From a virus: DNA of 64,000 nt. This document shows positions 598-27,197 of the stretch, piece after piece (within the stretch, counting starts at the first letter, position 1; the number at the start of each line of letters is the position of its first letter). The notes below the pieces were generated by a model, which was not told where the DNA came from, searched no databases, and saw only the letters and a list, made by a program, of their open reading frames with translations. Where the stretch lies: IMG/VR virus record IMGVR_UViG_3300034374_004935, positions 1-64,000 of that record; one strand, written 5' to 3'. Made by a program: the position numbers and the translations under genes.

Positions 598-858
598 TTA
601 TTCTACAGGTATTGGTTCACTCCATTCTGCCGTTGCCATCAATGTCAATACTCCAGCGTGATCTAAAGATTGAGTTGGAACTATTGTGCCATCGGAAATA
701 AATGTTGGCTCGTGTCCTGATTCGTATTTCAAAACGAATAATGTTCCATCTAAGCTCTTGCGAATTGTTTGTTCACTTGTTTCCGCAACTTGACTAAAAT
801 CTACACTAGGTAAGTCTGAGATATTTACAATTATATATACGTCTGGTAAGTGTGTCAT
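598..858 (-). CDS. Small fibre-associated protein, unknown
   Basis: This 86-residue protein is tightly packed between two fibre genes, with 16 bases to the upstream gene and five to the downstream one. It has no signal peptide, membrane segment or cysteine. It alternates hydrophobic and polar stretches (VYIIVNISDLPSVDF, DGTLFVLKYESGH), which suggests a small beta-rich domain. The position suggests a fibre chaperone, cap or small decoration protein, but I do not recognise a family. It is judged real from tight packing and co-orientation in a late operon. Confidence 0.6.
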   Translation of the reverse strand: MTHLPDVYIIVNISDLPSVDFSQVAETSEQTIRKSLDGTLFVLKYESGHEPTFISDGTIVPTQSLDHAGVLTLMATAEWSEPIPVE

Positions 859-874
859 ATCTTTTTTTATTTAA

Positions 875-3076
875 TTATTTATTCGGTACATCATCAACTA
901 TTGATGCATTTGTCGTGTTTGTCATTGTTCCGTTATTGTTTCCTGAACCTCTATCAATTAGTGTTGGATATGAATCAAAGTCACCCATTCGCCACCACGA
1001 TATTGGATTCAATGATTCAAGTGATTGAGGAACACCATTGTTGAAAATGCTTGTAACATCACTTGCAGAAAGCTCCGAATTAAATATTGCTACTTCATCA
1101 ATGTTGCCATTAAAATATCTACCAAGACCATTGAATCTTCCTATGTCTAATTTACCATTACCATACGCTAAAGATGTAGGTAGCGTTGCACCCGTAAAAC
1201 TTTCAGAAATTCCATTTACATAAATATTCGCATTTCCTGAACTAAATGTAACCACTATGTGATTCCAAACATTCTCTATAAATGGATAATTTATAGTAGT
1301 AATTACTCTTGGCGTTCCACCTAACTCTCTAATAGCAAAATTTAATTTTGTAGTACTACCAAGTACATTTGCAGTTTGTATTGCAAAGTTTCCATTATTA
1401 TTGTAAATCCAATCAGTTATAAAACATTTTTGAGTTGTTGCAGTTGTTTGTTTTGCCCATAATGATACCGAAAAATCAGTTAAATTTTGAAGATAAGGTG
1501 CATTTCCACAATCAATGTAGTCATCAACACCATCAAACAATATTGACTTTGTATTGAATAAAGGAACATCATTTGTCCTTGATGCCAATGCCATATTTTG
1601 TGACGTTCCATTGTTACCTCCTGAACCATTATCAGGTAATGTCCAATTTGTTCCGTTCCATGTTGCATCCTCTCCCATGCGATAATATGTAGTAGGCGCA
1701 ATTAATCCATTTTCATTCAGATTGTTTGGAACTCCTTGATTAAAAATTGTTTGTACTGAAGTTGAATCTCTTAAATCTTGCCCACTCCAAATTGCAACCT
1801 CGTCTAAATATCCGTTATACCTATTGAATCCTCCATTTGCATCAATTCCAATATGTAAAACATCAGTTGCCGTATAAAAACTTGACAAAATACCCATGGC
1901 ACTTGTTGTCGTTTCATCTACACCATTTATAAAAATAGCTCCTTCCGTTCCTATTGTTCTTGATAAATCTACGCAAACAAGAATATGATTCCAATCACCA
2001 TAAGTAATTGCATTAATATTACCACTAACATATTGTGATGTTCGTGATTCTACATTAAAGGATATATCAATACCTTCATACAATACCAATGCAAATTGAC
2101 TATTGTTTGCAGTTGTATCTCTTGGATTACTAATAATGTACTCTAATAATGGTGAACCACTAATTGGTTTAATCCAAACACTTAAAGTTAATTTTGTTCC
2201 ACCATTTAATTGTGAATAAATTGAATTGGTTTCAAAAATATCATCAACCCCATCAAAACTGAATGACTTGTTTGAATATAAACTTGGAACATCATCCTCT
2301 CTGTTTGCTTCCAACATATTTTGACTTCGCATTTCAAATGATCCATTAACATCTGTCAATGTCCAAGCAAAACCATTCCATGAGGCTGTCTCACTTCTCC
2401 ACCAATTTGTTGGTTGTGGTGTTGTTGGTAGGTTATTCAAATCGTTTGCAAGTCCCTGATTAAATATCTCTAAAACTTGTGATGCAGTTAAAACAGTTCC
2501 CTGTCCCCAACAAGCCACCTCATTCAGGTTTCCGTTCATAGGTAACGAGCCATCAATATTTGCTAAAAATGAAAGGTTCGTTCCCCTTCCCATGTTTGCA
2601 GTATTAAAGTTGCTTATTCCTTGTTGAACACCGTCCAAATATATTTTCAATCTTGTATATCTATTTGATAATGTATTATCCAAAGTGACGCAAACGTGAT
2701 ACCATTTGTTGATTTGTTTAACTGAGCCACTTCCACTCCTTGTCCAATTTGCTGATGAACCCTCAACGAATGCCTCTAATTGTAAACTTGCTCCACCTGC
2801 AAAGTAAACGTGAAAACCTCGTGTTGATGTATCTGTGTTTAACCTAATCAATGTTTGATTTGGTACAATGGTATCTAATTTAAACCAAAATGACCATGAA
2901 AATTGTGTTCCGTTGTCAATGCTTTTAAAGTTACTTGTAGATAGTAATTGGTCATCAATACCATCACCAAACCATGATGTAGTATCAAGAAAAGGTTGCT
3001 CCGTAGAAGTAGGCAATACAATGCTAGTTCCGTTTATGAAACCTAGCTTTTTATCAAAATTTATACTAGTAGGCAC
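875..3076 (-). CDS. Three-LamG-domain tail adhesin
   Basis: A 733-residue protein built from three concanavalin A-like LamG domains at roughly 30-210, 270-450 and 515-690. Each opens with a version of FDGVDD (WFGDGIDD, FSFDGVDD, LFDGVDDYID) and contains W-hydrophobic strands and an IYVNG or IFINGV hairpin. Between and after the domains a linker recurs, with a WWR or YYRMG start, WNG, a GSG..N.GT segment and a DDVP end. Such lectin folds bind glycans, so a host-surface adhesin is inferred. The N-terminus (MPTSINFDKKLG, then IVLPTST) is shared with the partial gene downstream. No catalytic glycosidase residues could be identified. The internal repeats suggest growth by duplication. Confidence 0.85.
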   Translation of the reverse strand: MPTSINFDKKLGFINGTSIVLPTSTEQPFLDTTSWFGDGIDDQLLSTSNFKSIDNGTQFSWSFWFKLDTIVPNQTLIRLNTDTSTRGFHVYFAGGASLQLEAFVEGSSANWTRSGSGSVKQINKWYHVCVTLDNTLSNRYTRLKIYLDGVQQGISNFNTANMGRGTNLSFLANIDGSLPMNGNLNEVACWGQGTVLTASQVLEIFNQGLANDLNNLPTTPQPTNWWRSETASWNGFAWTLTDVNGSFEMRSQNMLEANREDDVPSLYSNKSFSFDGVDDIFETNSIYSQLNGGTKLTLSVWIKPISGSPLLEYIISNPRDTTANNSQFALVLYEGIDISFNVESRTSQYVSGNINAITYGDWNHILVCVDLSRTIGTEGAIFINGVDETTTSAMGILSSFYTATDVLHIGIDANGGFNRYNGYLDEVAIWSGQDLRDSTSVQTIFNQGVPNNLNENGLIAPTTYYRMGEDATWNGTNWTLPDNGSGGNNGTSQNMALASRTNDVPLFNTKSILFDGVDDYIDCGNAPYLQNLTDFSVSLWAKQTTATTQKCFITDWIYNNNGNFAIQTANVLGSTTKLNFAIRELGGTPRVITTINYPFIENVWNHIVVTFSSGNANIYVNGISESFTGATLPTSLAYGNGKLDIGRFNGLGRYFNGNIDEVAIFNSELSASDVTSIFNNGVPQSLESLNPISWWRMGDFDSYPTLIDRGSGNNNGTMTNTTNASIVDDVPNK

Positions 3077-3079
3077 AAA

Positions 3080-3346
3080 TTATTTTCTTAAACTAATAAT
3101 TAAAAGTTCTGATCCTGTAGCATCATATTCTATTCTACCAAGAGTACCATTAGATTCTGATGCAGAAAAAGAAATTGTTTCTCCTATTTTTAATGCTACT
3201 CCGTCGACTGTAGCATCATTTGCTGCGTCAACATTTGCAATAGAAACAGAATAAGCTCCAGATGCAATGTAACCTGGAGCATTTCTAGGTCTTTCTATAG
3301 TAGGTTTAAAAGTAACTGCCTCTGTTTGTACTTGTATTCTTCCCAT
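3080..3346 (-). CDS. Small beta-rich virion protein, unknown
   Basis: An 88-residue protein ending three bases before the LamG gene begins. The sequence is rich in Ala, Ser, Thr and Val with alternating strands (YSVSIANVDAANDATVDGV, then IGETISFSASE), typical of a single Ig-like or jelly-roll unit. It has no cysteines, signal peptide or membrane segment. Its place between a basic 286-residue protein and the LamG adhesin suggests a baseplate or fibre-attachment piece. No family is recognised. Confidence 0.6.
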   Translation of the reverse strand: MGRIQVQTEAVTFKPTIERPRNAPGYIASGAYSVSIANVDAANDATVDGVALKIGETISFSASESNGTLGRIEYDATGSELLIISLRK

Positions 3347-3351
3347 TTTTA

Positions 3352-4212
3352 TTATATTTTATATGTAATTGTGAAAGTAATATTTTTTTCTGTAACTATT
3401 TGCCAAGTATTTTCAACTAAATCAAAACCATCTATTCCTAAAATTATTGTGCCATTAAAAACAAGTCTAAATTGCCCAATTTTTCCTTCTATTGGTTCAA
3501 AAATATAAGATCCGTCTCCTGATTTACCTGTTAAAATAACTCTTCCATCTTTTTCAACTCCTTGAGTAAGTATAGTATCAACTTTTGTAGATCCATCATT
3601 TTTAGTTAATGTATAAGTTCCTTTAGTAAAAATATGAGACTCTACAGGCTTAGGTGGTTCTTCTTTTTTCTTTTCTTTTGTTTCAATTATTCTAAATACT
3701 TCTGATTCTACATTTTTAAATACTTCTATTTCTAACCAAATAGATACAATTTTTTCTCTAAAATTTAAAGGAACTCCTTCAGAATTAAAAACTACAAATA
3801 TTAATTGATTATCTGCAATTTTCCATCTTACGTGATATTCTGTAGCTGTTCCTTCAAAGAAATGATCAAAAGTAATTCTAGTAATATTCATGTCTGAAAA
3901 AACTTTGTTTCTTTGATTTTTTAAAACAAAGTTTATTTGTTCGTCTATTCCTGGTACTACACTAAGTTCAAATTGATAATCAGAAGGATTTAAGGTATTT
4001 TGTGCAGTAATCTTATTTACTTTAATACCATCTGTTCTAATTAAAAGAACACATTTATCTGACGGAGCATCTTCAGCTTTATTAAGAAGTCCTATTGATT
4101 TTCCATTTGTATCTAGATAAGCAACTGTTTCTTTTTCTAAATCGTAAAATAATTCTGCATTTGTTGCAGTAGCTTTATTAGCTTGTCTAGCAAATCTTTT
4201 TAAAATATTCAT
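3352..4212 (-). CDS. Structural protein in fibre cassette, unknown
   Basis: A 286-residue protein with a basic N-terminus (MNILKRFARQANKATATN) followed by beta-rich sequence. Residues about 90-110 (DYQFELSVVPGIDEQINFVL) and about 115-180 look like a sandwich domain. A charged hinge (ETKEKKKEEPPKPVES) near residue 190 separates a C-terminal beta domain starting FTKGTYTLTKNDGSTKVD. The Lys/Glu/Pro hinge suggests two folded modules on a tether. It sits in the late operon with six or fewer bases to both neighbours. No enzyme motif was found; a baseplate or fibre component is inferred from position only. Confidence 0.6.
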   Translation of the reverse strand: MNILKRFARQANKATATNAELFYDLEKETVAYLDTNGKSIGLLNKAEDAPSDKCVLLIRTDGIKVNKITAQNTLNPSDYQFELSVVPGIDEQINFVLKNQRNKVFSDMNITRITFDHFFEGTATEYHVRWKIADNQLIFVVFNSEGVPLNFREKIVSIWLEIEVFKNVESEVFRIIETKEKKKEEPPKPVESHIFTKGTYTLTKNDGSTKVDTILTQGVEKDGRVILTGKSGDGSYIFEPIEGKIGQFRLVFNGTIILGIDGFDLVENTWQIVTEKNITFTITYKI

Positions 4213-4218
4213 TAGTAA

Positions 4219-4824
4219 TTAGTTTAATAATTTTTTAATTTGTTTGTATGTTAAAATATTGTAATTAGTAGTTTCTTCTTCAATGTCTCTAGTATCGTAA
4301 CAATTTAAAATTTCTAAAACTCTTTTTTCGTTTTTGAGACATTCTAACACTTCTGGTTGAACGTATCCAAAAGATACTTGATTAACAAATTTTAAAACAT
4401 CTTTAGCAAAAGTACATTGTTTATCCCAAACTAATTTATCAAAACATTCTTTATTTTTTTCATTTGCAGTTTGTGCTAAACTTGTAAGAGTAATATCTCC
4501 TCGTCCTCCTCCTGTACCATTGTCAGGTTGTAAAAGAGTTCCGTTACTATCTATAATAATAAATCCGATCAAAGTTCTTCCTGATCCAGGAGATAAATGT
4601 AAATCAAAAGGAGGTGCGCCTCCACTTCCATATAAAAAGGATAATATAGATCCTACACCTGTACCTCCTTCTGTAGGAGGAGCGGCTAAATAAGTAATTT
4701 CTGTTACTTCTTGACCTACAACTAATTCTGATAATGCTGCAAAATCATTTATTCTAAATAGATATACATTCCAAGGAGAATTATAACTAGTAGATGGGGC
4801 GCTATATAATAATGATGTTGTCAT
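4219..4824 (-). CDS. Virion-cassette protein, unknown
   Basis: A 201-residue protein ending six bases before the 286-residue gene. The N-terminal half (about 1-105) is beta-rich and glycine-rich (TEGGTGVGSILSFLYGSGG, then DNGTGGGRGD). The C-terminal half is alpha-helical and carries three or four cysteines (NKECFDKLVWDKQC, ECLKNEK, LNCYD). This pattern, an attached helical Cys-containing tail with segments such as CFDKL and VLECL, resembles the end of the 273-residue protein at 7,473-8,294, which also finishes in a helical Cys-rich segment. A structural role is inferred from context; no family is recognised. Confidence 0.6.
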   Translation of the reverse strand: MTTSLLYSAPSTSYNSPWNVYLFRINDFAALSELVVGQEVTEITYLAAPPTEGGTGVGSILSFLYGSGGAPPFDLHLSPGSGRTLIGFIIIDSNGTLLQPDNGTGGGRGDITLTSLAQTANEKNKECFDKLVWDKQCTFAKDVLKFVNQVSFGYVQPEVLECLKNEKRVLEILNCYDTRDIEEETTNYNILTYKQIKKLLN

Positions 4825-4825
4825 A

Positions 4826-6706
4826 TTATTCTCGTATTACTATTTGCCAATCTGTTATTGTTATGTTTGCCGTTCCTGTATTGTTTTGAACATACCAAGT
4901 TAATTGGTTTGTTTCTTCAGCTAAACAAGCAAATGTCATAGTTACAGTTCCAGAAGTATTAGTTGCTCCTGTACTTAAATGACTATTTGCAAATTGGACT
5001 CCATTTTTATATATAAAAAAACTATATTCATCACTACCACCACCACTTTTAGTAAAAGTAATAGTAGCATGTATAGACACAAACACTTGTTTTCCTCCTA
5101 GATAGGTTGCAACTCCACTAGAACTACCGCTCCAACGTACTCTATCTTGTTGTGCATTGTTATTACCACAATTTACTTGTACTGGTGTTCCACTAGAAGC
5201 TATTGTAGTAGCAGTTGTGTTGTTAATCATAGTCATTAAAATACCAGCCGTAGAATTTAACAATCCTTGATTAGCTGCAACATCATAATAATATGTAGCA
5301 GGTTGAGTATAATCAGGTAAAAGTGCGATTGGAATTTCAGGTAAAAATAATTTTCCAGTAGTTAATCCGACATTTATAAAAGTATTTGAGCTTATAGTTC
5401 CAAAGACAGTTCTTGAAGAAGTATTAATATTAATTCCATTTTGTGTTTGTTCAGGATGAACAATACATGAATTAATATTAACTACTGCAAATCCAACATT
5501 ATCTGGTCCATTTGCAAGTAATTCAATCATTGACGCAGTTGAATAAGTTGTAGCCGTAGCTTCGTCATACCAGTTATATAATTCGCAACTTGACATTTCT
5601 AAATGCCTAACGTCTTTAAATTGAAAGCCTACACTTCCTGTAGTATACCAACAAATTGAGTTGTTTAAATCGACTAATTCAAAGCCTGTAATTGTCATGA
5701 GATCATAACAACCTCTAAACTCACAACCAAAAATCTGTAATACTTTTGTTCTGCCATAATTATTAGCACTAACACCAGCAGTATAATTAATAGCATCAAG
5801 TATTTTACCTGTAGTAGTAGTATTAAAACCTACATTTTGAATACTAAAATCTACATCTGTAATATCGAATAAAGTGCCTGTGCCTGTGTATTGAATTAAA
5901 TCTTTAGTTCTGTCAAGACCTACAATCTTTGAGCCGTCATTATTAACTGTAATAGTGCTACTTACTCTGATCAATCCACGAATAACATAAGTAGTGTTTG
6001 CCGCTAAAGTGCTTGGTAGATGCGCAGCATCTGTTACTTCGACAATATTAGTGCCATTAGCAATACGAATCATTTGCCCACTAGTAAAAGTTAAGCTATC
6101 TGTTAACGTAGCCGTTCTTGTAGTGCCTATTGTACTATCTCCAGTATATATTGTTGTTAATCCACCTCCATCTGCTCCATTTATTATATAAGAAATAGCG
6201 TATTCTTTAGTATTAGCTAAATTACCTGTTGCAACAACTACTGAAGATACAGTGAGCTCAACGTGACTTGCTTGAATACTTCCTGCGCTTATCTTATATA
6301 TTCCTATTACACTACTATCATCTAAACTTGCTATTTGAAGAATTACTTCTCTTCCTGCTAAAATAGCAATGCGAATATTTGTTGCCCAAGTTTGGTAAGC
6401 ATTTGGTGTGCCTACAATAGATTGATAGTTTATACTAATATTTCCTACAGTAGATAAAGTTAAACTATCTGTAATAAAAGTTTCTACATTAGGAGTATTA
6501 GGTGATACGATACCACTATCAAATCTCCACCTACCTCCATTAGCCCCATCTTCTCCTCTAGGTCCTGAAAAATCTTCTGTAGTATAAGAACTACCATCTG
6601 TTAAAAATATTGTAAAAGTTCCGTCTCCATTATTTACAATAGTTTGAATTCCGACACCATCTGTGCCTGATAATAATGTTACTTCGTTACAATCTTTACA
6701 ACTCAT
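4826..6706 (-). CDS. Tail spike/fibre candidate with parallel beta-helix-like region
   Basis: A 626-residue protein. Residues 1-45 (MSCKDCNEVTLLSGTDG, then NNGDGTFTIFL) form a Cys-pair N-terminal module shared with the 249-residue protein upstream. A short collagen-like stretch (GPRGEDGANGG) follows. The middle, roughly 190-460, has repeated short strands with N/G turns and runs such as NSCIVHP and ISSNTFINVG. This is the look of a right-handed beta-helix of the pectate-lyase type, frequent in phage tailspikes. The C-terminal 120 residues resemble a jelly-roll trimer tip (VFVSIHATITFTKSGGG, then WQIVIRE). Host-glycan binding or cleavage is inferred; no active-site residues can be assigned. 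Confidence 0.7.
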   Translation of the reverse strand: MSCKDCNEVTLLSGTDGVGIQTIVNNGDGTFTIFLTDGSSYTTEDFSGPRGEDGANGGRWRFDSGIVSPNTPNVETFITDSLTLSTVGNISINYQSIVGTPNAYQTWATNIRIAILAGREVILQIASLDDSSVIGIYKISAGSIQASHVELTVSSVVVATGNLANTKEYAISYIINGADGGGLTTIYTGDSTIGTTRTATLTDSLTFTSGQMIRIANGTNIVEVTDAAHLPSTLAANTTYVIRGLIRVSSTITVNNDGSKIVGLDRTKDLIQYTGTGTLFDITDVDFSIQNVGFNTTTTGKILDAINYTAGVSANNYGRTKVLQIFGCEFRGCYDLMTITGFELVDLNNSICWYTTGSVGFQFKDVRHLEMSSCELYNWYDEATATTYSTASMIELLANGPDNVGFAVVNINSCIVHPEQTQNGININTSSRTVFGTISSNTFINVGLTTGKLFLPEIPIALLPDYTQPATYYYDVAANQGLLNSTAGILMTMINNTTATTIASSGTPVQVNCGNNNAQQDRVRWSGSSSGVATYLGGKQVFVSIHATITFTKSGGGSDEYSFFIYKNGVQFANSHLSTGATNTSGTVTMTFACLAEETNQLTWYVQNNTGTANITITDWQIVIRE

Positions 6707-6712
6707 TTTATT

Positions 6713-7462
6713 TTATTTTTTAACAGATAAAGTGGCATTTACTTGGATAAACTCATTATCTGCAATAACGGTTCCGTCGTTAGTATAACTATATGATATA
6801 TATAATAAATCTCCTTTATTAAAAGTTATAGTACTTATAGGATAATCTACACATGCAGTATATAAACCAGAAGTTCCTGCTAAAGTTAATTGATATTCTA
6901 CAGGAATAGTTAATGCAGTTAAATCAGTATCTGATCCAGCATTACCTATATCTGAACAAGCTAATTTATACATTAAAAAATTAATAAATATTGTACTAGC
7001 ACTATGATTAGTAGCAAACGTTGCTCTTAAAGATAAAGTGTTTCCAGAAATTACATCTACAGGACTTGGTACTCCACAAGCTACTACTGTTTCAGTAGGA
7101 GTAAGTCTTGTTGCTCCTGAATAATCTATTAATACTGGAGTAGTTTTAATTTGTCCTTGTAAAGGTGTGGCTACTATTTTAGTAGTTCCAGAACCTGCAG
7201 CAGTGTAAGTATCTGTACGACCTATCATTTGATTACCTATTGCTGCTCCATTTTCTGAGTAAAAATCAGGACCTAATGTAAAAAAATTATGATGTAATAA
7301 AGGAACATCTCCTTGATCAGTCATAGTAATAGTTTGACTAGTGCCATTATCTAAAAATATAGTAAATGTACCATCGCCATTATCTACAATAGCAGAAATA
7401 CCTGTTCCATCATTACCTGCTAATAATGTGACATCTTTACAATCTTTACATCCGCATCCCAT
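6713..7462 (-). CDS. Fibre-cassette protein with Cys-pair N-terminal module
   Basis: A 249-residue protein beginning MGCGCKDCKDVTLLAGNDG and continuing NGDGTFTIFL. It is clearly homologous over about 40 residues to the start of the 626-residue protein downstream, with a CKDC motif in both. The rest (about 55-249) is a single beta-rich domain ending FIQVNATLSVKK, resembling a C1q/TNF-like or jelly-roll tip of the kind found at phage fibre ends. The shared N-terminus probably docks both proteins to one attachment site or lets them form mixed complexes. The fold assignment is inference; the homology is visible. Confidence 0.7.
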   Translation of the reverse strand: MGCGCKDCKDVTLLAGNDGTGISAIVDNGDGTFTIFLDNGTSQTITMTDQGDVPLLHHNFFTLGPDFYSENGAAIGNQMIGRTDTYTAAGSGTTKIVATPLQGQIKTTPVLIDYSGATRLTPTETVVACGVPSPVDVISGNTLSLRATFATNHSASTIFINFLMYKLACSDIGNAGSDTDLTALTIPVEYQLTLAGTSGLYTACVDYPISTITFNKGDLLYISYSYTNDGTVIADNEFIQVNATLSVKK

Positions 7463-7472
7463 AATTTAAGTT

Positions 7473-8294
7473 TTAACAGTTACCAGTATTACACTCGTCA
7501 AGTGTATTGCAATATGTTGTTGCCGCAGCAAGTATTGCTTCTGCAGTGTCGAAATCTCCGCAACTAAATGCTGATTGTATGCCGTATATATAAATTTCCA
7601 TTTGATCTACATATGTTTTTAATTTCTCTACGGTCTCTTCATCACATGCATCGATTAACTTAACAATTAAGTTATCTTTACAATTACATAGATTGCATAA
7701 AAATAAAACGTATTGTTTATCGTTTTCATAAGTATTAGATGCATCTTGTACTTTGTAAACTATTCTATATACTCCATCGTTACCTGACCAAGCAACTTCT
7801 GATAAAGCTGTAAAAGCTCCTGGAGTAGGAGCACCTGCTACGCCTGCGTAGACATCTGTAGTGCCATCTTTTAATATAAAATTTTGTGTAAGAACATTAC
7901 CGTTAATAGTAGTAGAAGATACTGTTTGAGCGATATTTACTGTATAAGTACCTCCGTTATTAGATCCTGTTCCTGTAAGTAATGCTGTGATTTTTGTTCC
8001 AGCTGCTACACCAACACCTGTAAGAGTTTGTCCTACTTTAAATGTTCCTGATATATGTGTAACGTCTGTGAACGTTGTTCCTGATATAGTGCCCGTACCC
8101 GAAGCTTGCACATCAGGAGTTTCGTCACTATTAAAAAATTGAACATCAGCATAAACAATTGCTGATGTATCAATATTTGGCGTTCCCCAACCTCCGTTAT
8201 TTGTAGATAATACATAAGGACCTGTTTCCTCTTGTATTGTAATCTTATCGCATTTATTATTTAAAGATGCGGAAATTTTAGGTTTGAGTGCCAT
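7473..8294 (-). CDS. Virion protein carrying a mobile GTISGTT-type module
   Basis: A 273-residue protein. Residues about 60-130 hold a [18 protein letters not shown] segment followed by [31 protein letters not shown] and a VSSTTI ending. This glycine/threonine-rich beta module recurs, in my recollection, in unrelated phage structural proteins, inserted at variable places. The flanks read as one interrupted domain ([14 protein letters not shown] ... [13 protein letters not shown]). The C-terminal 80 residues are helical and Cys-rich ([31 protein letters not shown]). It lies between the 249-residue fibre protein and the 411-residue structural gene. A tail or fibre component is inferred. Confidence 0.65.
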
Positions 8295-8326
8295 TTAGTT
8301 TTTTTTAGTTATTAATTAAAAAATAT

Positions 8327-8366
8327 AGTAGCCCGCCATAGACAGCAATTTTATGGCGGGACTACT
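8327..8366 (-). terminator. Strong hairpin after the 411-residue structural gene
   Basis: Arms 8,332-8,340 (CCCGCCATA) and 8,352-8,360 pair over nine bases. AGTAG at 8,327-8,331 pairs with CTACT at 8,362-8,366 across a one-base bulge, extending the stem to 14 pairs. In the leftward direction the stem is followed by TATATTTTTT. This fits an intrinsic terminator or a 3'-end stabiliser for the abundant structural transcript; some read-through to the fibre genes would be needed. Confidence 0.75.
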
Positions 8367-8383
8367 GTGGGTGGAGAATTTAC

Positions 8384-9619
8384 TTATTCTTCGAAATCAG
8401 AATCTGCAAATCCAAATACATCAACTACAAGTTCTTCACCTGTTGATTGAGTTGCTGGGAAAGCCCCGCTTGTACCTAAATCTACATAAACTAATACTGA
8501 TCCTTTACCTCCTTGAAGAGAAACTAATCCTCGAATATCTTCTGTCCAAGAGATTTCCATACATCCGTATTTGTTTCCTTCAATAACTGCTTGATCTCTC
8601 ATTCGTGGTGGAACACCTAACATGCTGTTTTCACCTTCAAATCCGTAGCTCATGTACTCATCCATAGCAACTTGTTGCCATACACCAGAACCTGTACGAG
8701 CTCCTGTTGTAGTAATCAAAGTTGACTCATCAGAGAAAGTTACAGTGAATCGGTTAACGTAGTAATCACGGAAAGCGTTTACATCAAAGTCAGCTTGTAC
8801 ACCTGTAAGTCTAACACCAAAGTTAGCAGCTGCTGTAAGTTTACCGTGGTTAGTAGCATAAGTAGTACCTGTTGCTAAAGCTGTTACAGTTGTTCCTTCA
8901 AAAGGAGTTGACAACGTTACAGTTGTAGTTGTAGGTACAGCTGCTACTTGATAAGTTGCTCCTGCAATAAATACTAAATCACCTACTGCTAAAGAGTGAG
9001 CTGCAGAGTAAGTTAAAGCTGTTGATCCATTAGTTGCTGCTAATGTAGCAGTACCAATAGCCGCGGTAGTACCGTCAGAAATTACATCAAACTTTAAATA
9101 ACCATTAGCGGGCTCTTTTGCAAAATTTGCTTGTCCGTTTTTAACTAAAGCAAAAGCAACTTCTTCTTGAGTAGCAGAAGCATCACTCTTAATAGGACCT
9201 GCAAAAAGGCTCATTGGTTGAGATCGGTTAGCTGCATCATTATCATTCTTACGAATTTTGATAAAGTAATCTGTTGAATTAGCTGCAGGAAGAGAACCAG
9301 TAGTTCCGTTAAATCCTACAATTGATACTTGTTGTACAGCTACTCGGTGAATACTAGTAGAAAGTGTAGCACTTGCTTTAGTAATCATAGGAGAAATCAT
9401 TAATTGTTTTCCTGTACCTTTTCCTTGTACGATTCGGTAACGATCAGCTGCTGCTAAAGCGGCTGCATCCATTCTGCGCATTCCTGCATCTACTGCAACA
9501 ATAGCGCCTTCTTCCAAGTTAGAATCAGATACAACTGTACCAACTGCTGGAAGGTTTCCTGCTTGTTTTGTGCTATCGTCTAATACGACACTAAACACAT
9601 TGTCTGCGGTTCTAAGCAT
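8384..9619 (-). CDS. Major structural protein with an inserted beta module
   Basis: A 411-residue Ala/Thr/Gly-rich protein. It has more G/C-ending codons than its neighbours, and a strong hairpin follows it; both fit high expression. Residues about 190-250 (ATLAATNGSTALTYSAAH, then VAAVPTTTTVTLSTPFEG) are a beta module similar in style to the one in the 273-residue protein. The C-terminal third (FTVTFSDESTLITTTGARTG, then WTEDIRG, VLVYVDLGTSGAF) is beta-rich. It follows the neck genes, so a tail, tail-barrel or decoration role is possible. I cannot assign it to a named crAss-like virion component. Being a real and abundant virion protein is the safer claim. Confidence 0.65.
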   Translation of the reverse strand: MLRTADNVFSVVLDDSTKQAGNLPAVGTVVSDSNLEEGAIVAVDAGMRRMDAAALAAADRYRIVQGKGTGKQLMISPMITKASATLSTSIHRVAVQQVSIVGFNGTTGSLPAANSTDYFIKIRKNDNDAANRSQPMSLFAGPIKSDASATQEEVAFALVKNGQANFAKEPANGYLKFDVISDGTTAAIGTATLAATNGSTALTYSAAHSLAVGDLVFIAGATYQVAAVPTTTTVTLSTPFEGTTVTALATGTTYATNHGKLTAAANFGVRLTGVQADFDVNAFRDYYVNRFTVTFSDESTLITTTGARTGSGVWQQVAMDEYMSYGFEGENSMLGVPPRMRDQAVIEGNKYGCMEISWTEDIRGLVSLQGGKGSVLVYVDLGTSGAFPATQSTGEELVVDVFGFADSDFEE

Positions 9620-9651
9620 TTGTTTTTGTTTTTAAAAATTAATATTCATTA

Positions 9652-10416
9652 TTATTCTAAGTCTCTAAAGTTCTCAATTGTTTGAACTTTTTGTTCTTTT
9701 ACTCTTTGTAACATTAAATCTGTTGCTATGCCGACTATTACTACATGAGTACTTTCGTCAAGCTCACAGTTTCTTTGATCATCAGGAACTGCTCTATCTA
9801 CTCTTATATTTTCTGGATTCTTAACGTATCTTATATGATAATTTGTTACGTTAAAAGTACCATCAGTAAATAGTTCGTGGCGTTTAGCTGTTTCAGTATC
9901 TCCAGGATTTAATGCTGAAGTTTCTCTACTAAACTCTGAACGCCAAACTCTACAATCTCCATTAGGTCTATAAAATGGTTTCTTGTATTTACTCCAATTA
10001 AATCTTTGCATTTCATTGTGAGCAACTACCATAACCCATCCTATAATACTATTGTTAGTGTCACATTCTGTTTTATCAATTGTACACTCTTCATAAATAG
10101 TATACATGTGATCACTTGGTAGGTCGTAGAATTTACCTGTTACATTATTATTTACTAGCACACCCGCTTGGTCTGCCGAAGCCGAAAGGTTGTTAGCATC
10201 TTTAACTAATGCTGACAACCCTTGGTTTCTAATTTCTGTCTCCTCAAAGCCTTTTTGTTTTCTGTTGTTTACTTCATCAAAAAACTTTTTAACGTATAAC
10301 TGCTGTGCCTCTGTTAGCACGGAAGATAAATCAAAATCTTCGTAACCAGGAGAGCCAAAGCTATCAGCTCTGTCTAGCTTCTCCTCTAACATATCGGCCA
10401 TTTCGTTTGCAGTCAT
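9652..10416 (-). CDS. Conserved crAss-like head-neck/ring protein candidate
   Basis: A 254-residue acidic protein. Its N-terminal helices (MADMLEEKLDRADSFGSPGY, then VLTEAQQLYVKKFFDE) resemble, from memory, a structural protein conserved in crAss-like phages downstream of the capsid gene. A beta region follows (VTGKFYDLPSDHMY, then VTNYHIRYVKNPENIRVD). The final helix (VVIVGIATDLMLQRVKEQK) is typical of head-tail connector or ring proteins. It overlaps the 313-residue gene by one base. Role as a neck or adaptor ring is inferred from place and helix layout; the exact ring identity is unknown. Confidence 0.6.
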   Translation of the reverse strand: MTANEMADMLEEKLDRADSFGSPGYEDFDLSSVLTEAQQLYVKKFFDEVNNRKQKGFEETEIRNQGLSALVKDANNLSASADQAGVLVNNNVTGKFYDLPSDHMYTIYEECTIDKTECDTNNSIIGWVMVVAHNEMQRFNWSKYKKPFYRPNGDCRVWRSEFSRETSALNPGDTETAKRHELFTDGTFNVTNYHIRYVKNPENIRVDRAVPDDQRNCELDESTHVVIVGIATDLMLQRVKEQKVQTIENFRDLE

Positions 10417-11357
10417 TAATTACGTTGTTTTAAATCTATTTTAGCTTTAATTCTCATTTTTACTTCTTGATTATCAGGGTTATTTAAATACATAATTGTA
10501 TCTGTTAAATCACCTAACTCTGATCCGTTATCAAGAGTATATCGTTTGTTTCCTTTTCTAATTATAGCTCCTGCTTCAGTAGCCTCTTGTACAAAGATAC
10601 GATCATTATACTGAGGATGAGTGACTATTTCTAAGAAATAATTAGGATCTTTTTCAAGAACATTTAATACTTCATTTTTAAGCCAATCTGTTGTAGCAGT
10701 TGCTGGAATAGTTCGTCCTAAAGATTTTATGAATCCGACGATTGCTTGTTTGCTATTAGTAATCTCTGCGAACTTAACATATGCATCTGCTTTTACATTT
10801 GCTTCTGCTAATTTTTGTACAGTTACTTTATCTTCGTCTACAATCATAAACTCGTATGTTGCTTTTAAAATTCTTTCATCATAAGACGGTGAAACCAACA
10901 TCTTATTAGAAAGAAGAATTAAATACTTCAACATATCTAAAGGACGATTAAGATTTAGAGTAGTTCCTTCTTTAGTTAGAATTACTCTACCTCTTCTATC
11001 TGATCTCCAGAAGTTTTTATCTGTTGGTAAAGTAGGATTTAAATCTACTCCCAACTCTGTTTCAAAGAACTCTTTTTGTGTCATCCCGTTTGGATAACTT
11101 TCCATATACTTTTGAATGCTCACTCTTTTTTGATCATCCAATATTACTTTAACTCCGCCACCTTTAATTTGGCTATTTAATGGTACTTGATAACTTCTTT
11201 TTACTTTGTTATACAAGAAAGGATCTTTCTTTTTATCCTGACCTTTTACAAGTAAGTTATTCCATTTTCCCGATGACTCTACAGGTTTAATAGAAATTAC
11301 TCTATCTTGTAGAAAGCTACCATATGTTATTTTTTCTTTTGCTGCTGTCTTTGCCAT
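10416..11357 (-). CDS. Capsid-proximal structural protein, unknown
   Basis: A 313-residue basic protein directly after the major capsid gene and its hairpin. It opens MAKTAAKEKITYGSFL and has a loop-rich N-terminal 110 residues, then a helical middle (LDMLKYLILLSNKM, KLAEANVKADAYVKFAEI). The stretch VQEATEAGAIIRKGNKRYTL near the end suggests a small beta domain. There are no cysteine clusters or membrane segments. Position suggests a capsid-associated or neck component; no family is recognised with confidence. Confidence 0.55.
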   Translation of the reverse strand: MAKTAAKEKITYGSFLQDRVISIKPVESSGKWNNLLVKGQDKKKDPFLYNKVKRSYQVPLNSQIKGGGVKVILDDQKRVSIQKYMESYPNGMTQKEFFETELGVDLNPTLPTDKNFWRSDRRGRVILTKEGTTLNLNRPLDMLKYLILLSNKMLVSPSYDERILKATYEFMIVDEDKVTVQKLAEANVKADAYVKFAEITNSKQAIVGFIKSLGRTIPATATTDWLKNEVLNVLEKDPNYFLEIVTHPQYNDRIFVQEATEAGAIIRKGNKRYTLDNGSELGDLTDTIMYLNNPDNQEVKMRIKAKIDLKQRN

Positions 11358-11393
11358 TTTATTATTATTTGCTGTCTTTTAAATTCTCTTTTT

Positions 11394-11435
11394 AAAAAGA
11401 GCTCCCTAGGCTATCAACTCTAAGGAGCCTTTTTT
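11394..11435 (-). terminator. Hairpin terminator after the major capsid gene
   Basis: GCTCC at 11,401-11,405 pairs with GGAGC at 11,424-11,428, extended by AAAAAG at 11,394-11,399 against CTTTTTT at 11,429-11,435 with an A bulge. Read leftward, the T-run complementary to 11,394-11,398 closes the hairpin, so the structure is an intrinsic terminator for the capsid transcript. It sits alone in the 110-base gap between the capsid gene and the next gene. Confidence 0.75.
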
Positions 11436-11467
11436 GTATTCAATTAACCTTATTTATGAACAAGATT

Positions 11468-12979
11468 CTATCTCTCAACTAGTAGTCTTAGATCTACAAC
11501 TTTTGTAGGATCTTCGATCATCATACCTCCCCATTTCTGGAAGTGTACTTCGTATCCGTCTACTCGTGAAGCTACCATTTTAGGACTGTTTTTTCCTCCT
11601 GGAGAGAATGGATCTCTCATACCTGGGATATACGCCCAATTGTAATCTGGAACTCCTTTTGGCTTAACTCGGTAGATACCTGCGTTATCGCCATAATCAA
11701 GTGCTAAAATTCTGTGAGATTCTACGATACCTTTTCCATCTGGATGTCTTTGTGGGAAGTATACATCATCATCGAAGAAATCAAGGATTTCAACCATAAT
11801 AGTAACTCCGTTGTACCACTCATATACATTCCATTGTGGCTCTTGTAAACTCTTAGTGTTTTTACCACCGATTGTTCCTGAAGAAGTATTTCCTAACAAG
11901 AATTTATCAGAAATTACAGTAAACTTACCAGAACCTGATTTTTCGTTAATCTGCTTAGAGATTTCGATAGCTCCGAATTCTCCTGTAAGCAAGTGAATTG
12001 TTCTTTTACCTCTTTCGATTTTACCAACACCCATATCAAGAAGTAATTCAAGATGCCAATCAAGGTCGTAAGTGTTATAATAGTGTACGTTAGAAGGAGC
12101 GATTTGCTCAAAGAAACCTGAACCTGACTCAACTGCATATTTAGTTTTGTCATCTTTGTTCAAGTATTTGTGATCAGATGTCCAGTTTTTCTTACCGTAC
12201 ATCAACATACGAGCAAACATTTCTTCACACTGGTGGTGAGCAACCATATCTTGATAGTTAATCCAGATAGATTCTGTTTGACCTTTGTAGTTAAATCCAA
12301 ACTCAAGAGGTTCGTTTTTACCTTTGTTAATAGTGTTACCAGCTACTTCATATTCCATTCTTAAAGTAGATGGACGGTTTTCCATTCTCCAAGGAGATGT
12401 GAAGTAAGGTTTAGAACCTTGGTAAGAAAGTGTAGATGGAGCAAGTGAGTAGAATTTAGACCAACGTGTACCAATTGCTAATTCCTCAGAAGGAATAGAT
12501 TTAGTAGGATTGTCAGTAACTAATTCAACTTCAAACTTAAATCGAGATCCTGCATCCATAGCTTTTTTAACTAATAGATGATAATCATCAACTTCACCAC
12601 GAAGAACGTTAGTTTCTTCAAATAAAGCTTCGTCGAAGATTAAATAGAATCGCTCTCCGTTTGCTCCTACGTTAGCAGGAAAGTTTCCTCCTGAGATAGA
12701 TGCTCCTGAAATAGTTTCAGCATCAACCAAAGGAAGGTTTTTGTCGTGTTGTCCTTGCAACATCCAGTTGTAGAATCCGTTCTCTTGTTCCACTTCTTTA
12801 ACAGGGAACCGATCACAGAACTCACGCAATTTACCTTGTAAATTAGTTTTGTAAATCTCACGAATTACATTACTAATCAATTGAGGCTTTTGTTGGTACA
12901 AAGCATGGAAATGGTTGTCAGTGACAAGACCATTGTAATCTTTAGCTTCATACTTTTGTAATGGAAGTAATTGTGCCAT
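11468..12979 (-). CDS. Major capsid protein (crAss-like, HK97 fold expected)
   Basis: A 503-residue protein, the usual size for crAss-like major capsid proteins (about 490-510). The N-terminus (MAQLLPLQKYEAKDYNGLV, then FHALYQQKPQLISNVIREIY) and the middle block with QGKLREFCDRFPV agree with the crAss-like capsid sequences I recall. Its place, after the portal and a scaffold-like gene, is the standard one. Comparatively even codon use and a dedicated downstream hairpin suit high expression. The HK97 fold is known for the family, not visible here. Identity is inferred from sequence style, length and synteny together. Confidence 0.85.
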   Translation of the reverse strand: MAQLLPLQKYEAKDYNGLVTDNHFHALYQQKPQLISNVIREIYKTNLQGKLREFCDRFPVKEVEQENGFYNWMLQGQHDKNLPLVDAETISGASISGGNFPANVGANGERFYLIFDEALFEETNVLRGEVDDYHLLVKKAMDAGSRFKFEVELVTDNPTKSIPSEELAIGTRWSKFYSLAPSTLSYQGSKPYFTSPWRMENRPSTLRMEYEVAGNTINKGKNEPLEFGFNYKGQTESIWINYQDMVAHHQCEEMFARMLMYGKKNWTSDHKYLNKDDKTKYAVESGSGFFEQIAPSNVHYYNTYDLDWHLELLLDMGVGKIERGKRTIHLLTGEFGAIEISKQINEKSGSGKFTVISDKFLLGNTSSGTIGGKNTKSLQEPQWNVYEWYNGVTIMVEILDFFDDDVYFPQRHPDGKGIVESHRILALDYGDNAGIYRVKPKGVPDYNWAYIPGMRDPFSPGGKNSPKMVASRVDGYEVHFQKWGGMMIEDPTKVVDLRLLVER

Positions 12980-13017
12980 TTTTGATTTGTATTATTTGTT
13001 AACGGTATAAATTTATT

Positions 13018-14175
13018 TTACTTTTTCATTGCTCTATCGAGCATATCTAATATATTACTTGTTTTCTGAGAAGTTTCTACGGAAGTATTTTTACCTACGT
13101 TTCTATCTTCTGATGCAATTATTTTATCTAATTCATTAATTGCTTTTGTTTTAGCTACTTGTTTTAGTTTAGAAATATCAGGTTTAAACTTACCTTCTTT
13201 ATCTAAATTAAACAGTCCTAAAGTATCATAGTAATTTATAAGCATTTCAAACTCTACTGGGTTTCTAGTTTGCTTATACATTAAACTATTATATTCTCTT
13301 CCTGTCTTATTATCTTTATAAACAGGGTTTAGAATATTCTGCTTAATTTTTTCCTTACTTATTTTATTAAGGTTGATACCATCTATAAAAGAACTTCTTT
13401 GATCTATATTATTAATTAAAGATTCAAAAGCTTTATTTTGTTCTTCTATTTGTTTCTTAGTTCTTGCTGCTTTATATTCTTTAGCTTCTGTAACTACTGC
13501 ATTAGCTTGGTTCTTTAACTCAGGTACTGCTTTAAGTGCTTTGTCTTGTAGCTTACCAACTTCTATTGCATCTTGCACTGCTTCAGCTGCTTCTTCATTA
13601 GAAAAATTCTTTGACTTTAAAAGATCGTAGTAAATCTCTTTTTGTAGATTTTCATCTTCTTTAATTGATTGCTCTGTTACAGAGTCAAAAAATTCTAACC
13701 TTTGTGCCATTATAATAGCTTGGTCAGTCTCATCAAATGCATCTTCAATTTCTAAGAATCTTTTTTTAGCAGCAGGCATGTTAGCTTTCCACTGTTCTTC
13801 AGCTGCTTTAAAATTAGTTTGAACCGTTTTAGTCATTAACTCTTTAATAGTATCTAATGACCCTTCTAATTCATCTAATTTATCAGCTTCTGCACTAGTG
13901 ATAATATTTGCATCAACTAATTCTTTAATCAATCCTTTATAAATTTCTTCACTCCTCTCGCTTGAGGCAGCGGTTTTAGACTCAGTTTGATTGTCAGTGT
14001 TTTCATAAGCACCTTCACCTTCTTCTGATTCTACAGGTTGAAACATTTCTGAGTTCTCCTCCTCAGTTTTTGTTTCTTCTTTTTCTTCGCTTTCTTCAGA
14101 CTCCACGACTGAATTAAGCTCTTCTGGTGACATTATTTGAAGTCCTTCAAATAGATCATCTTTTTCTTCACTCAT
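13018..14175 (-). CDS. Acidic helical scaffold-like protein
   Basis: A 385-residue protein with a strongly acidic, disordered-looking first 75 residues (EELNSVVESEESEEKEE and more). A mostly helical, coiled-coil-prone body follows (KAVPELKNQANAVVTEAKEY, then KQIEEQNKAFESLIN). It has no cysteines or catalytic motif. A gene of this composition between portal and major capsid protein is usually the internal scaffold. A maturation protease is not evident here or elsewhere in the window. The call is inference from composition and position. Confidence 0.65.
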   Translation of the reverse strand: MSEEKDDLFEGLQIMSPEELNSVVESEESEEKEETKTEEENSEMFQPVESEEGEGAYENTDNQTESKTAASSERSEEIYKGLIKELVDANIITSAEADKLDELEGSLDTIKELMTKTVQTNFKAAEEQWKANMPAAKKRFLEIEDAFDETDQAIIMAQRLEFFDSVTEQSIKEDENLQKEIYYDLLKSKNFSNEEAAEAVQDAIEVGKLQDKALKAVPELKNQANAVVTEAKEYKAARTKKQIEEQNKAFESLINNIDQRSSFIDGINLNKISKEKIKQNILNPVYKDNKTGREYNSLMYKQTRNPVEFEMLINYYDTLGLFNLDKEGKFKPDISKLKQVAKTKAINELDKIIASEDRNVGKNTSVETSQKTSNILDMLDRAMKK

Positions 14176-14265
14176 AATTGCTGTCTTTATTTGGTTACAA
14201 TATTAAAATTATTTTTATAATTAAACTCGATTATATTTATAGCTTTGTTCTATAGTGCTATAGCT

Positions 14266-16716
14266 TTATTTGTTTTTGATTGCTTTAGTTCTTTGCTTTT
14301 CTAGCTTCATTTTTTCTTTAGCAATTTCTTCTTTAGCTTGATTACTTCGAATAGTCTCGTCTAATTTAGCTTGATCTAGTTGTGTTTTTTGATCATTCCT
14401 TTTCTCTTCAACTTCTGTTCGTCGTAAATCTAATTCGTCAGCAATACCGTTACCGTCAGAATCTAATAAACCTGATTCTGTACGATAATTATTATTAGCT
14501 TCTCTCATAGCTGCTATTTGTATATCTGCTTGAATCTTTTCTCTCTTAACAGCTATATCATCATCATGCTTCTTAATTTCGAATTCTCTTTCAGCTTCTG
14601 CTTGTTGTGCTTGAGCTTGTTGCATTTCTTGTTGTTGTTGCATTTGTTGCTCTTGCATTTTATTATTTTCTTCTCTAATTCTTTCTGCAGAATTTTGAAG
14701 TTTTTTAGCAATATCTTGTACAGAGTCAGATTGCGATATAGCTACTAAATCCGAAATAGTTGCTTGACCATTTTGAATAGCTGCTTGAGATAACGCTCTA
14801 ATGTCGTTATACAATTGCGTATCATTGCTAGAATTAGAAAGATGTAAATCATACTCTGTAGAGGCAAACTCATCGAAATGAGTAATAAATTGCTGACTAA
14901 GGTCATCAAGTAAGAATTGCCCTTTTTGAGGATTAGTTTTATATGCATATTTACAACATTCTAAAAATTTAGTTAATGCTCTTTTTCTAAAGTTTTGGTC
15001 TATAGCAAACCATTTTTCTGTAATGTGAGATGTCTGTGCAACTTCTCTTTCAACATTGCCTACTGCTTCTCTATTTTGTATTTGTCCTTCCCGTGCTCCA
15101 GAAACACCAGCTAGCTTGCCTAGTGTATTTTCTATGTCGACTAGTAAATTAGTATACATGCCTATTGCATTAGGATCTCCTATATTAACTTGTTGCGCAG
15201 TAAGCTGATTAAATTGTCCTGCAGACTTACCTTGGGCAGGGCCTTTAAGGATTTCATTAGTAGGATCTAACCAAGCAAACTTATTTACAGTTACGTATCT
15301 CATCCACTCTTTTGGATCCCATCCTGAGGGTACAAGTGCAGAGTTAATAGCAGTAAAGGACCCCTTATACGTGGCAATTTCGAGCTCTCTTTTGTAGTAA
15401 GCTATGTCATAAGAATAAGCGAGAGGTTTCATAACGTCCATAAGAGATTGGACTTTATAATCGTTTGTGGAATTAACAGAGCCAATATATGGTGGGGTCC
15501 CTTTAGATTTATTTACTAATGATTTGCTAGCAAATGGTACAGGACGCATTACTGTGTAAATGTGGTCAGCTATCTTAGTTCCTTCTAACCATTCGTTTAC
15601 CCATATCCATTTTACTTTTTCTCCAAGTTCTTTATTGGGTCTGTAGTCTTCAGGAACCCAATCTTTTTGCTCCACACCTTCTTCATCAAAATAAGTTAGC
15701 TCTCCAATCTTACGTCTAGAACGCCAACATACTTTCATAACCCTTACATTGCCGTATGTATCAAATGCACCTGCAAAAGTTCTAACACCTGCTTCATTAG
15801 GATGAAATATATCTAATGCTCCAGCTTCTCCATAGAAATCAAATATTGATATATCTCTATTTAAGCCAACACCTCCACCACCATCCATAGCAGTGTCTAC
15901 TTTTCCTTTTTCTAGGAAGTCTATATCTTTTGGTTTAAGAGTATCCCAATAATCATCGATTACTTGGCCTACAGATTTGTATCCGTATTCTACAATAATA
16001 TCTGCATCTTCAATATACATAGAGCTGCCGCCAAGAGTATATAAGTTCATTGGATTTACTCGTCGCATTACAGGTTCTCCTCCTAATACACCGCAATATA
16101 CTATTTCTTCACCTGCTGTAAGTAAGTCTTCAAATGTTCTTAAGAATTCAAAATCAAAGTTTTGTTCTTTGTATTCTTTTTTTAAGATTTTATTAGCTAC
16201 GATTTCACTTATATCTTGGAACTCGTAATTTTTATATCTTTCAAGATTTTGTAATCTTTTTTGTATTTCTTCTTCGGAAATAGATTCCATCTGGATGATT
16301 CCCATCATCTCTTGTTTAATCTGTTCCATTAAAATTTGCTCTTTTCTAGAAATACCTTCTTGATCGCCTGAAGAAATATAAGCTTTAAACTCTTTCTTAC
16401 GCTTTGCGTATTCTCCTAATAATAAATTAATTTTTGTGTTTTCAATACCGATGTGTTGAAAAGTCGCAGGCAGTGAATCGAGATCTAAATTATCAGGATT
16501 AATAAATTTTTCAAAATCTCTAGGAGAGATTACATTAGAACGTAGATTATAATTAATACGTTTATTTCTAAAACTGTTTCTAAGATTGACATCAGATGTT
16601 AAAAGATGTTCTGCGAAGTCTATATTCTTTTTATACCACTTATCTGTCTTTTGTGTATCAGATAATTTTTGTCGTGGAAAATTTATATAACCTTGATTAT
16701 CTAGAGCGTCGGCCAT
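14266..16716 (-). CDS. Portal protein
   Basis: An 816-residue protein next to TerL, matching the large portals of crAss-like phages. Residues about 1-120 include the portal-type start (YINFPRQKLSDTQKTDKWY). The middle contains a wing-like beta region (EEIVYCGVLGGEPVMRRVNP, IIVEYGYKSVGQVI). The stem-helix region follows around 530-620 (LAGVSGAREGQIQNREAVGN). The last 150 residues are a Gln/Glu-rich coiled coil (a QMQQQQEMQQAQAQQAEAER stretch) probably forming a barrel or internal extension. It forms the dodecameric DNA channel at the packaging vertex and docks TerL. Synteny and length make this secure. Confidence 0.88.
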   Translation of the reverse strand: MADALDNQGYINFPRQKLSDTQKTDKWYKKNIDFAEHLLTSDVNLRNSFRNKRINYNLRSNVISPRDFEKFINPDNLDLDSLPATFQHIGIENTKINLLLGEYAKRKKEFKAYISSGDQEGISRKEQILMEQIKQEMMGIIQMESISEEEIQKRLQNLERYKNYEFQDISEIVANKILKKEYKEQNFDFEFLRTFEDLLTAGEEIVYCGVLGGEPVMRRVNPMNLYTLGGSSMYIEDADIIVEYGYKSVGQVIDDYWDTLKPKDIDFLEKGKVDTAMDGGGGVGLNRDISIFDFYGEAGALDIFHPNEAGVRTFAGAFDTYGNVRVMKVCWRSRRKIGELTYFDEEGVEQKDWVPEDYRPNKELGEKVKWIWVNEWLEGTKIADHIYTVMRPVPFASKSLVNKSKGTPPYIGSVNSTNDYKVQSLMDVMKPLAYSYDIAYYKRELEIATYKGSFTAINSALVPSGWDPKEWMRYVTVNKFAWLDPTNEILKGPAQGKSAGQFNQLTAQQVNIGDPNAIGMYTNLLVDIENTLGKLAGVSGAREGQIQNREAVGNVEREVAQTSHITEKWFAIDQNFRKRALTKFLECCKYAYKTNPQKGQFLLDDLSQQFITHFDEFASTEYDLHLSNSSNDTQLYNDIRALSQAAIQNGQATISDLVAISQSDSVQDIAKKLQNSAERIREENNKMQEQQMQQQQEMQQAQAQQAEAEREFEIKKHDDDIAVKREKIQADIQIAAMREANNNYRTESGLLDSDGNGIADELDLRRTEVEEKRNDQKTQLDQAKLDETIRSNQAKEEIAKEKMKLEKQRTKAIKNK

Positions 16717-18917: not shown

Positions 18918-19158
18918 TTAATGCTGGCCATTTATCTATTGGACAAGAAGATTCTAATGAGCGTGTTTTAAATTTTAAAGAACATCCACAGATTGAACAA
19001 CAAGAAGAAATAAGAGCTGCACAGTTTGTAGACTTATGTTCACAGTCTGAGCAGATAGTATTTCTAGCCTCAGCTACTTCTTCTATAAATTCATTTTTTA
19101 ATATCAGGTTTTTAATTCCTGATAATATTTTTTGTTTATTTTCCCAAATGTTATCCAT
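18904..19158 (-). CDS. Small zinc-ribbon protein next to terminase
   Basis: An 84-residue protein whose C-terminal half holds a dense cysteine array (CSDCEHKSTNC, SSCCSICGCSLK, SSCPIDKW). This gives at least two CxxC knuckles, so one or two zinc ions are likely. The N-terminal 30 residues form a helix. It ends inside the TerL start (14-base overlap), suggesting translational coupling. Small zinc-ribbon proteins with a C-terminal CPxxKW motif are widespread in phages of Bacteroidota, but their function is unknown. Terminase accessory or DNA binding is only a guess. Confidence 0.65.
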   Translation of the reverse strand: MDNIWENKQKILSGIKNLILKNEFIEEVAEARNTICSDCEHKSTNCAALISSCCSICGCSLKFKTRSLESSCPIDKWPALNDKQ

Positions 19159-26981: not shown

Positions 26982-27197
26982 ATGGCAAGATATGAATATA
27001 AGTGTTCAGAATGTGAAGAAATAGAAGTGTTCGATGAACATCCTAAAGCTCTTACAGAATGTATAGAGTGTAATGGAGAATTAAGATTACTATCTGTAGA
27101 TAGTAGTTATCAATGGGAGTGCTCCGAATGTGGAGCTCCCGTTGATAAGATGAACGAAGTATGTAGTAATAACTGTTTTAAAGCAATGATGAGATGA
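26982..27197 (+). CDS. Small zinc-ribbon protein
   Basis: A 71-residue protein with three or four Cys pairs: YKCSECEE, TECIECNG, WECSECGAP and VCSNNC. The first part (MARYEYKCSECEEIEVFDEH) matches the FmdB-type putative regulatory zinc-ribbon start (M..Y.Y.C..C). Two zinc sites are likely. It begins one base after the previous stop and overlaps the next gene by four bases (ATGA). Such ribbons often bind nucleic acid or RNA polymerase; no specific partner is evident. Confidence 0.65.
   Translation: MARYEYKCSECEEIEVFDEHPKALTECIECNGELRLLSVDSSYQWECSECGAPVDKMNEVCSNNCFKAMMR

Follow-up and report, generated by a model that had tools for sequence, protein, structure and literature searches.

The window, a stretch of 64,000 nucleotides, is part of an 83,638-base (83.6 kb) record of a crAss-like phage. 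Its major capsid protein matches the Pfam family Crass_capsid (PF23898, Crassvirus major capsid protein; E 1.9e-83), and the product of 9652-10416 matches the ring 3/4 (R3/4) protein (Pfam, E 2.1e-21). Matches to R2 (E 2.1e-31), R1 (E 2e-51) and the muzzle protein (E 3.3e-144) lie in the record outside the window. Judged by these sequence matches to capsid, R1, R2, R3/4 and muzzle, the phage belongs to Crassvirales.

Two adjacent genes on the minus strand, at 6713-7462 and 4826-6706, encode a 249-aa fibre-like protein and a 626-aa fibre/tailspike-like protein. Both start with a candidate cysteine anchor followed by a passenger of their own. They are flanked on the same strand by genes for a 273-aa protein (7473-8294) and a 201-aa protein (4219-4824). 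A 411-aa protein (8384-9619, minus strand) tentatively occupies the slot of the auxiliary capsid protein. The assignment follows from position: the 411-aa family matches AUX weakly (hhalign E 0.014, probability 3.1%), and no Pfam AuxCP match was observed in the 14 members scanned.

The gene order is conserved. Among 80 contigs retrieved via the capsid protein, all 14 loci listed in full have the order capsid, 313 aa, ring 3/4, approximately 411 aa, approximately 273 aa, one or two CKDC genes, approximately 201 aa, other anchors. A single additional gene was observed 5' of the 273 gene in L078, where the order is otherwise standard.

The cysteine anchor and its passengers

Residues 5-44 of the 249-aa protein align with residues 3-42 of the 626-aa protein over 40 residues with 70% identity (E 3e-15), which confirms the similarity of about 40 residues reported in the initial annotation. 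The Smith-Waterman score of the two proteins is 155, and 500 shuffles gave a mean of 49.5, a standard deviation of 7.6 and a maximum of 81. Taken together, the E-value and the shuffle test exclude a chance origin. Past the anchor, the two passengers show no similarity to each other (score 40, shuffled mean 45). The shared cysteine pair described initially is correct for the 626-aa protein, which has two N-terminal cysteines (MSCKDC), whereas the 249-aa protein has three (MGCGCKDC). Of 58 non-nested window ORFs with a length of at least 80 aa, no other has two cysteines or more within the first 14 residues, and a search of the entire record with the 249-aa protein found no place besides the 249 and 626 genes. 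A phage DNA search, tblastn of the 249-, 273- and 626-aa proteins in phages, and PDB sequence searches returned nothing informative.

By sequence comparison, the common stretch consists of two modules. A specific peptide of approximately 15 residues comes first, with the pattern C-x-x-C followed by [VI]TL[LF]xG. It covers residues 1-16 of the 249-aa protein (MGCGCKDCKDVTLLAG, 7415-7462, minus strand) and residues 1-14 of the 626-aa protein (MSCKDCNEVTLLSG, 6665-6706, minus strand). The second is a predicted beta-hairpin stalk module, DGxGI..NGDGTFT..TDG, at residues 17-46 of the former (7325-7414, minus strand) and residues 15-43 of the latter (6578-6664, minus strand). The hairpin is generic: it was detected in 42 of 66 anchors with a regular expression, which overlooks some variants, its profile has weak matches to filamin-type Ig repeats, and the same hairpin with the NGDGTFT turn, without cysteines, occurs inside g086 of phage phi14:2 and inside the Bacteroidota proteins L293 and L294. 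Because of these occurrences without cysteines, the whole 40 residues cannot be one specific docking domain. Of the docking unit of that length proposed initially, only the cysteine peptide is specific.

A search with the profile of the 273-aa protein widened the sample to 68 distinct proteins of this family, 66 of which are followed by a visible ORF. Of these 66 next ORFs, 65 have at least two cysteines among the first 14 residues, and 64 have the core [VIL]T..G (regular expression); these distinct sequences are often close relatives and the counts are not numbers of independent events. Lack of conservation of the cysteines in relatives had been named beforehand as the observation that would speak against a docking role; the cysteines are kept. 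The sole exception is L145, where the CKDC gene is absent from the 26-kb fragment. In the set selected by the capsid protein, the motif opens the ORF after the 273 gene in all 42 visible loci, the window included. The number of anchor cysteines ranges from two to three among relatives, and the most deeply conserved part is C-x(0-3)-C-x(1-3)-[VIL]T[LF].G. In the examined loci the peptide is confined to N-termini in this gene slot, in a single copy or two neighbouring ones.

The passengers are much more diverse. In the 59 complete distinct anchor proteins (154-647 aa; L145 and proteins truncated at contig ends excluded), 58 anchors form one similarity cluster, whereas the masked passengers carried by these 58 fall into 15 clusters. 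Runs of at least five consecutive Gly-X-X triplets follow the anchor in 28 of the 59 proteins and are absent from 31. In the 626-aa protein, the passenger (residues 186-626; 4829-6151, minus strand) is 47% identical over 452 columns to the C-terminal part of L165:8753-11311, whose N-terminal anchor is different and, by reading, resembles that of the window 286-aa gene (the 286-slot). The passenger of L007 is up to 52% identical over 164 positions to MST-type proteins, and the C-terminal approximately 100 aa of the L148 CKDC fibre match Flavobacterium isolate proteins named structural or tail fibre. Passengers common to CKDC, MST-type and 286-slot anchors are what exchangeable anchors predict. 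At the sequence level, a constant anchor with swapped passengers is what receptor-binding proteins mounted on exchangeable anchors look like.

These data bear out the initial annotation of the CKDC N-terminus as a docking family distinct from the MPT/MST anchor, since the anchor is constant and its passengers are swapped and shared with MST-type proteins and the 286-slot anchor. Its estimate of two attachment sites is not supported by the data, in which three or four types of anchor can be distinguished at a minimum.

The neighbouring genes as candidate tail hub

The 273-aa protein is a candidate tail hub protein A (THA-like) by predicted fold and position, with an N-terminal beta domain and a cysteine-rich three-helix C-terminal domain (7476-7706, minus strand). 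In 65 full members of the family (three truncated proteins of the 68 excluded), seven cysteine positions are filled in at least 64, and four further positions in 50 to 57. Residues 64-131 (7902-8105, minus strand) form a 68-residue inserted domain, which is present in most relatives of 268-293 aa and absent from relatives of approximately 200 aa. The insert matches PHROG 38233 (tail fiber protein).

An initial AF2 model of the window protein from 14 sequences was poor (pLDDT 62 overall, the helical part poor). The fold search was therefore done without it, and the fold result rests on L148, a family member lacking the insert, whose model from a 50-sequence alignment has a pLDDT of 90.1. VIA-align matches residues 4-185 of this model to chain 7qol_W of the crAss001 tail assembly (153 of 174 residues aligned, Z 8.4, rmsd 4.7). 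Among the matches listed, this chain alone covers most of both domains; the others, of similar Z, align over approximately 87-104 residues that fall almost entirely within the beta domain, and unrelated chains among them score as high (Z 8.6). From its residue range, 7qol_W appears to be gp38. In the PDB, no Foldseek match reached E <= 0.001; the comparison with 7qoj_H is non-significant (TM 0.44/0.46, E 0.065). This chain is presumably a second copy of gp38, as it stands between 7qoj_G (gp38, tail hub protein A) and 7qoj_I (gp39). Against predicted structures, Foldseek matched S0A0T4 of phi14:2 (E 1.9e-4), a protein of 186 aa, the same length as g087. The latter is a structural protein whose record cites mass-spectrometric proteomics, and its gene directly follows that of a Pfam auxiliary capsid protein.

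By its predicted fold, the 273-aa protein may share with crAss001 gp38 (PF25724) a beta N-terminal and a helical C-terminal domain with a cysteine-bearing C-terminal tail, and it may also share the slot after the auxiliary capsid protein (tentative for the 411-aa gene). It differs in the 68-residue insert of most family members and in that no sequence similarity to gp38 was detected. Indeed, the window protein has no Pfam family at E <= 0.1, and crAss_THA (PF25724), which is matched by gp38 and by a Dulem virus 41 protein, is not among the 25 families listed out of 26 obtained with 50 scanned members. Comparison of the family with THA by hhalign gave E 0.13, in register; profile comparison with THB and the 201 family found nothing. 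Since the sequence tests are negative, we go no further than to say that the 273-aa protein probably works as a THA-like tail hub, as the model suggests; we do not regard its membership of the THA family as proven.

Position alone makes the 201-aa protein a candidate for tail hub protein B. It has a variable N-terminus and a constant cysteine-bearing C-terminal domain. None of the 14 members scanned matched PF25711 or any other Pfam family; the comparison with the gp39 family by hhalign gave E 0.06 over 16 columns, and profile comparison with THB and THA found nothing. In proteins of this slot the C-terminal domain (LEILNCYDTRDI...) is kept and the N-terminal part is swapped, often opening with a cysteine pair of its own (MCDC, MACNC, MECNC). 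In L143:1019-2374 one protein fuses a CKDC-type N-terminus to a 201-like C-terminal domain.

Proposed docking and possible role of the cysteines

With the 273-aa protein as the probable tail hub, the most plausible role of the cysteine anchor is that of a plug by which fibres attach to this hub. The proposed reading is that the 249- and 626-aa proteins are fibres or tailspikes whose cysteine peptide plugs into a tail hub made of the 273-aa and probably the 201-aa proteins; we estimate its probability at roughly 0.6. That the attachment site is the tail-hub-like protein encoded next door has a fair likelihood, given the structural model. The C-x-x-C...[VI]TL[LF]xG peptide would be the conserved plug seated in the hub, and the socket would be the THA-like 273-aa protein, perhaps with the 201-aa protein, by analogy with crAss001. 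The hairpin, together with the collagen-like repeats of many relatives, would form a presumably trimeric stalk, and the variable C-terminal part would bind the host surface. After lysis, the plug cysteines may form disulfides with the cysteine-rich hub. In support of this reading, the two candidate hub genes flank the fibre genes, and cysteines are concentrated in this group: the 273-, 249-, 626- and 201-aa proteins have 9, 6, 9 and 4 cysteines, respectively, and each of the remaining genes listed from 598 to 16,716 has 0-4. Elsewhere in the window, an 84-aa ORF beside the terminase (18904-19158, minus strand) has eight cysteines and a zinc-finger-like look, and a 71-aa ORF (26982-27197, plus strand) has four cysteine pairs and a zinc-ribbon-like look.

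The published description of crAss001 (Bayfield 2023, PMC10172136) gives its hub as THA2-THB, disulfide-stabilised and docking residues 1-26 of the trimeric fibre gp22. Docking of the fibre to the hub in the window phage is proposed by analogy with this system, which would have in common with ours a short N-terminal docking segment and a hub stabilised by disulfides. Moreover, gp22 is a fibre or tailspike with a beta-helix domain, assigned by Pfam in gp22 and only by sequence reading in the 626-aa passenger. However, gp22 starts with MFFTQEDYRKIEKWL and has no cysteines in its first 120 residues, whereas the window anchor has C-x-x-C, and by inspection no N-terminal docking segment similar to that of gp22 was observed. 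The gp22 gene is near the portal gene, whereas the window fibre genes lie between the candidate hub genes. As the N-termini of both gp22 and phi14:2 g086 are devoid of cysteines, docking to the hub does not require cysteines in relatives.

Disulfide bonding of the anchor cysteines is likely. A stronger version, in which the cysteine-rich domain of the hub is a redox-locked universal socket joined to the CxCxxC plug by disulfides or a shared metal site outside the reducing cytoplasm, so that the passenger is fixed covalently, is possible but doubtful. If it is true, any passenger with the 15-residue plug would be covalently fixed, which would help explain the free exchange of passengers. Co-variation of cysteines between hub and anchor is weak in the sequences. 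The hub of L145, which lacks the CKDC gene, has lost C203 and C245, both retained in the related CKDC-bearing L254; this apparent co-loss is weakened by L257, which lost C245, and L226, in which C245 is shifted, as both still carry CKDC genes. An apparent link between the number of anchor cysteines (two or three) and those of the hub tail was set aside: it tracks clades and does not hold for the window 249-aa protein.

The cysteines could instead connect the three fibre chains with each other, forming a cystine knot at the stalk head without contact to the hub. Collagen-like trimers are often knotted by cysteine pairs, and the Gly-X-X runs behind 28 of 59 anchors are in line with this; but the cysteine peptide and the ITLF core are retained in the 31 proteins without repeats, and the cysteines stand at the extreme N-terminus beside a cysteine-rich neighbour gene in 65 of 66 cases, so that we regard a knot as rather unlikely. 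We consider it slightly less likely still that the cysteines bind a metal ion (zinc or iron), either along the fibre axis or jointly with the hub. CxCxxC would supply up to nine thiols per trimer, and the hub-like protein has its seven filled cysteine positions, but there is no four-ligand motif per chain and no match to a metal-binding family, and the cysteine number varies between two and three.

We consider it improbable that the proteins are head fibres plugged into the hexon pockets of the capsid, like crAss001 gp21 and gp29. Their genes do come after the capsid and auxiliary-protein slots, and crAss001 head fibres too are docked by short N-termini, as stated in PMC10172136. However, the adjoining gene is hub-like rather than capsid-like, and one passenger matches isolate proteins named tail fibre. 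By inspection, the N-termini are unlike those of gp21 or gp29 and have no similar capsid-binding segment, and a head fibre of the gp21/gp29 type was rejected.

A cultured phage may use the same kind of cysteine plug as that proposed here for the tail hub. Flavobacterium phage Fpv20 (NC_031912) has a 411-aa gene in the auxiliary slot, then cysteine-rich gp19, a 13-Cys protein in the hub slot, and long gp20 (gp19 and gp20 at L179:16211-18952), a 663-aa protein starting with MCKQQNCGCNDPC (MCKQQNCGC). Fpv20 differs in having no detectable match to the CKDC profile, and the relation is one of position and cysteines only.

Among the papers listed by literature searches, none was shown to describe a cysteine-tipped fibre anchor in crAss-like phages. 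The anchor described here is real, conserved and open to a functional interpretation, probably as part of a cysteine-bearing variant of hub-docked tail fibres. It would provide a short tag by which receptor-binding fibres can be recognised in uncultured crAss-like phages of environmental metagenomes. The tag would also direct attention to the hub-like protein as the partner of these fibres, so that fibre genes may be found by position and motif even though the remainder of the protein is novel. If the cysteine lock is true, it would be a covalent plug for exchangeable tail fibres.
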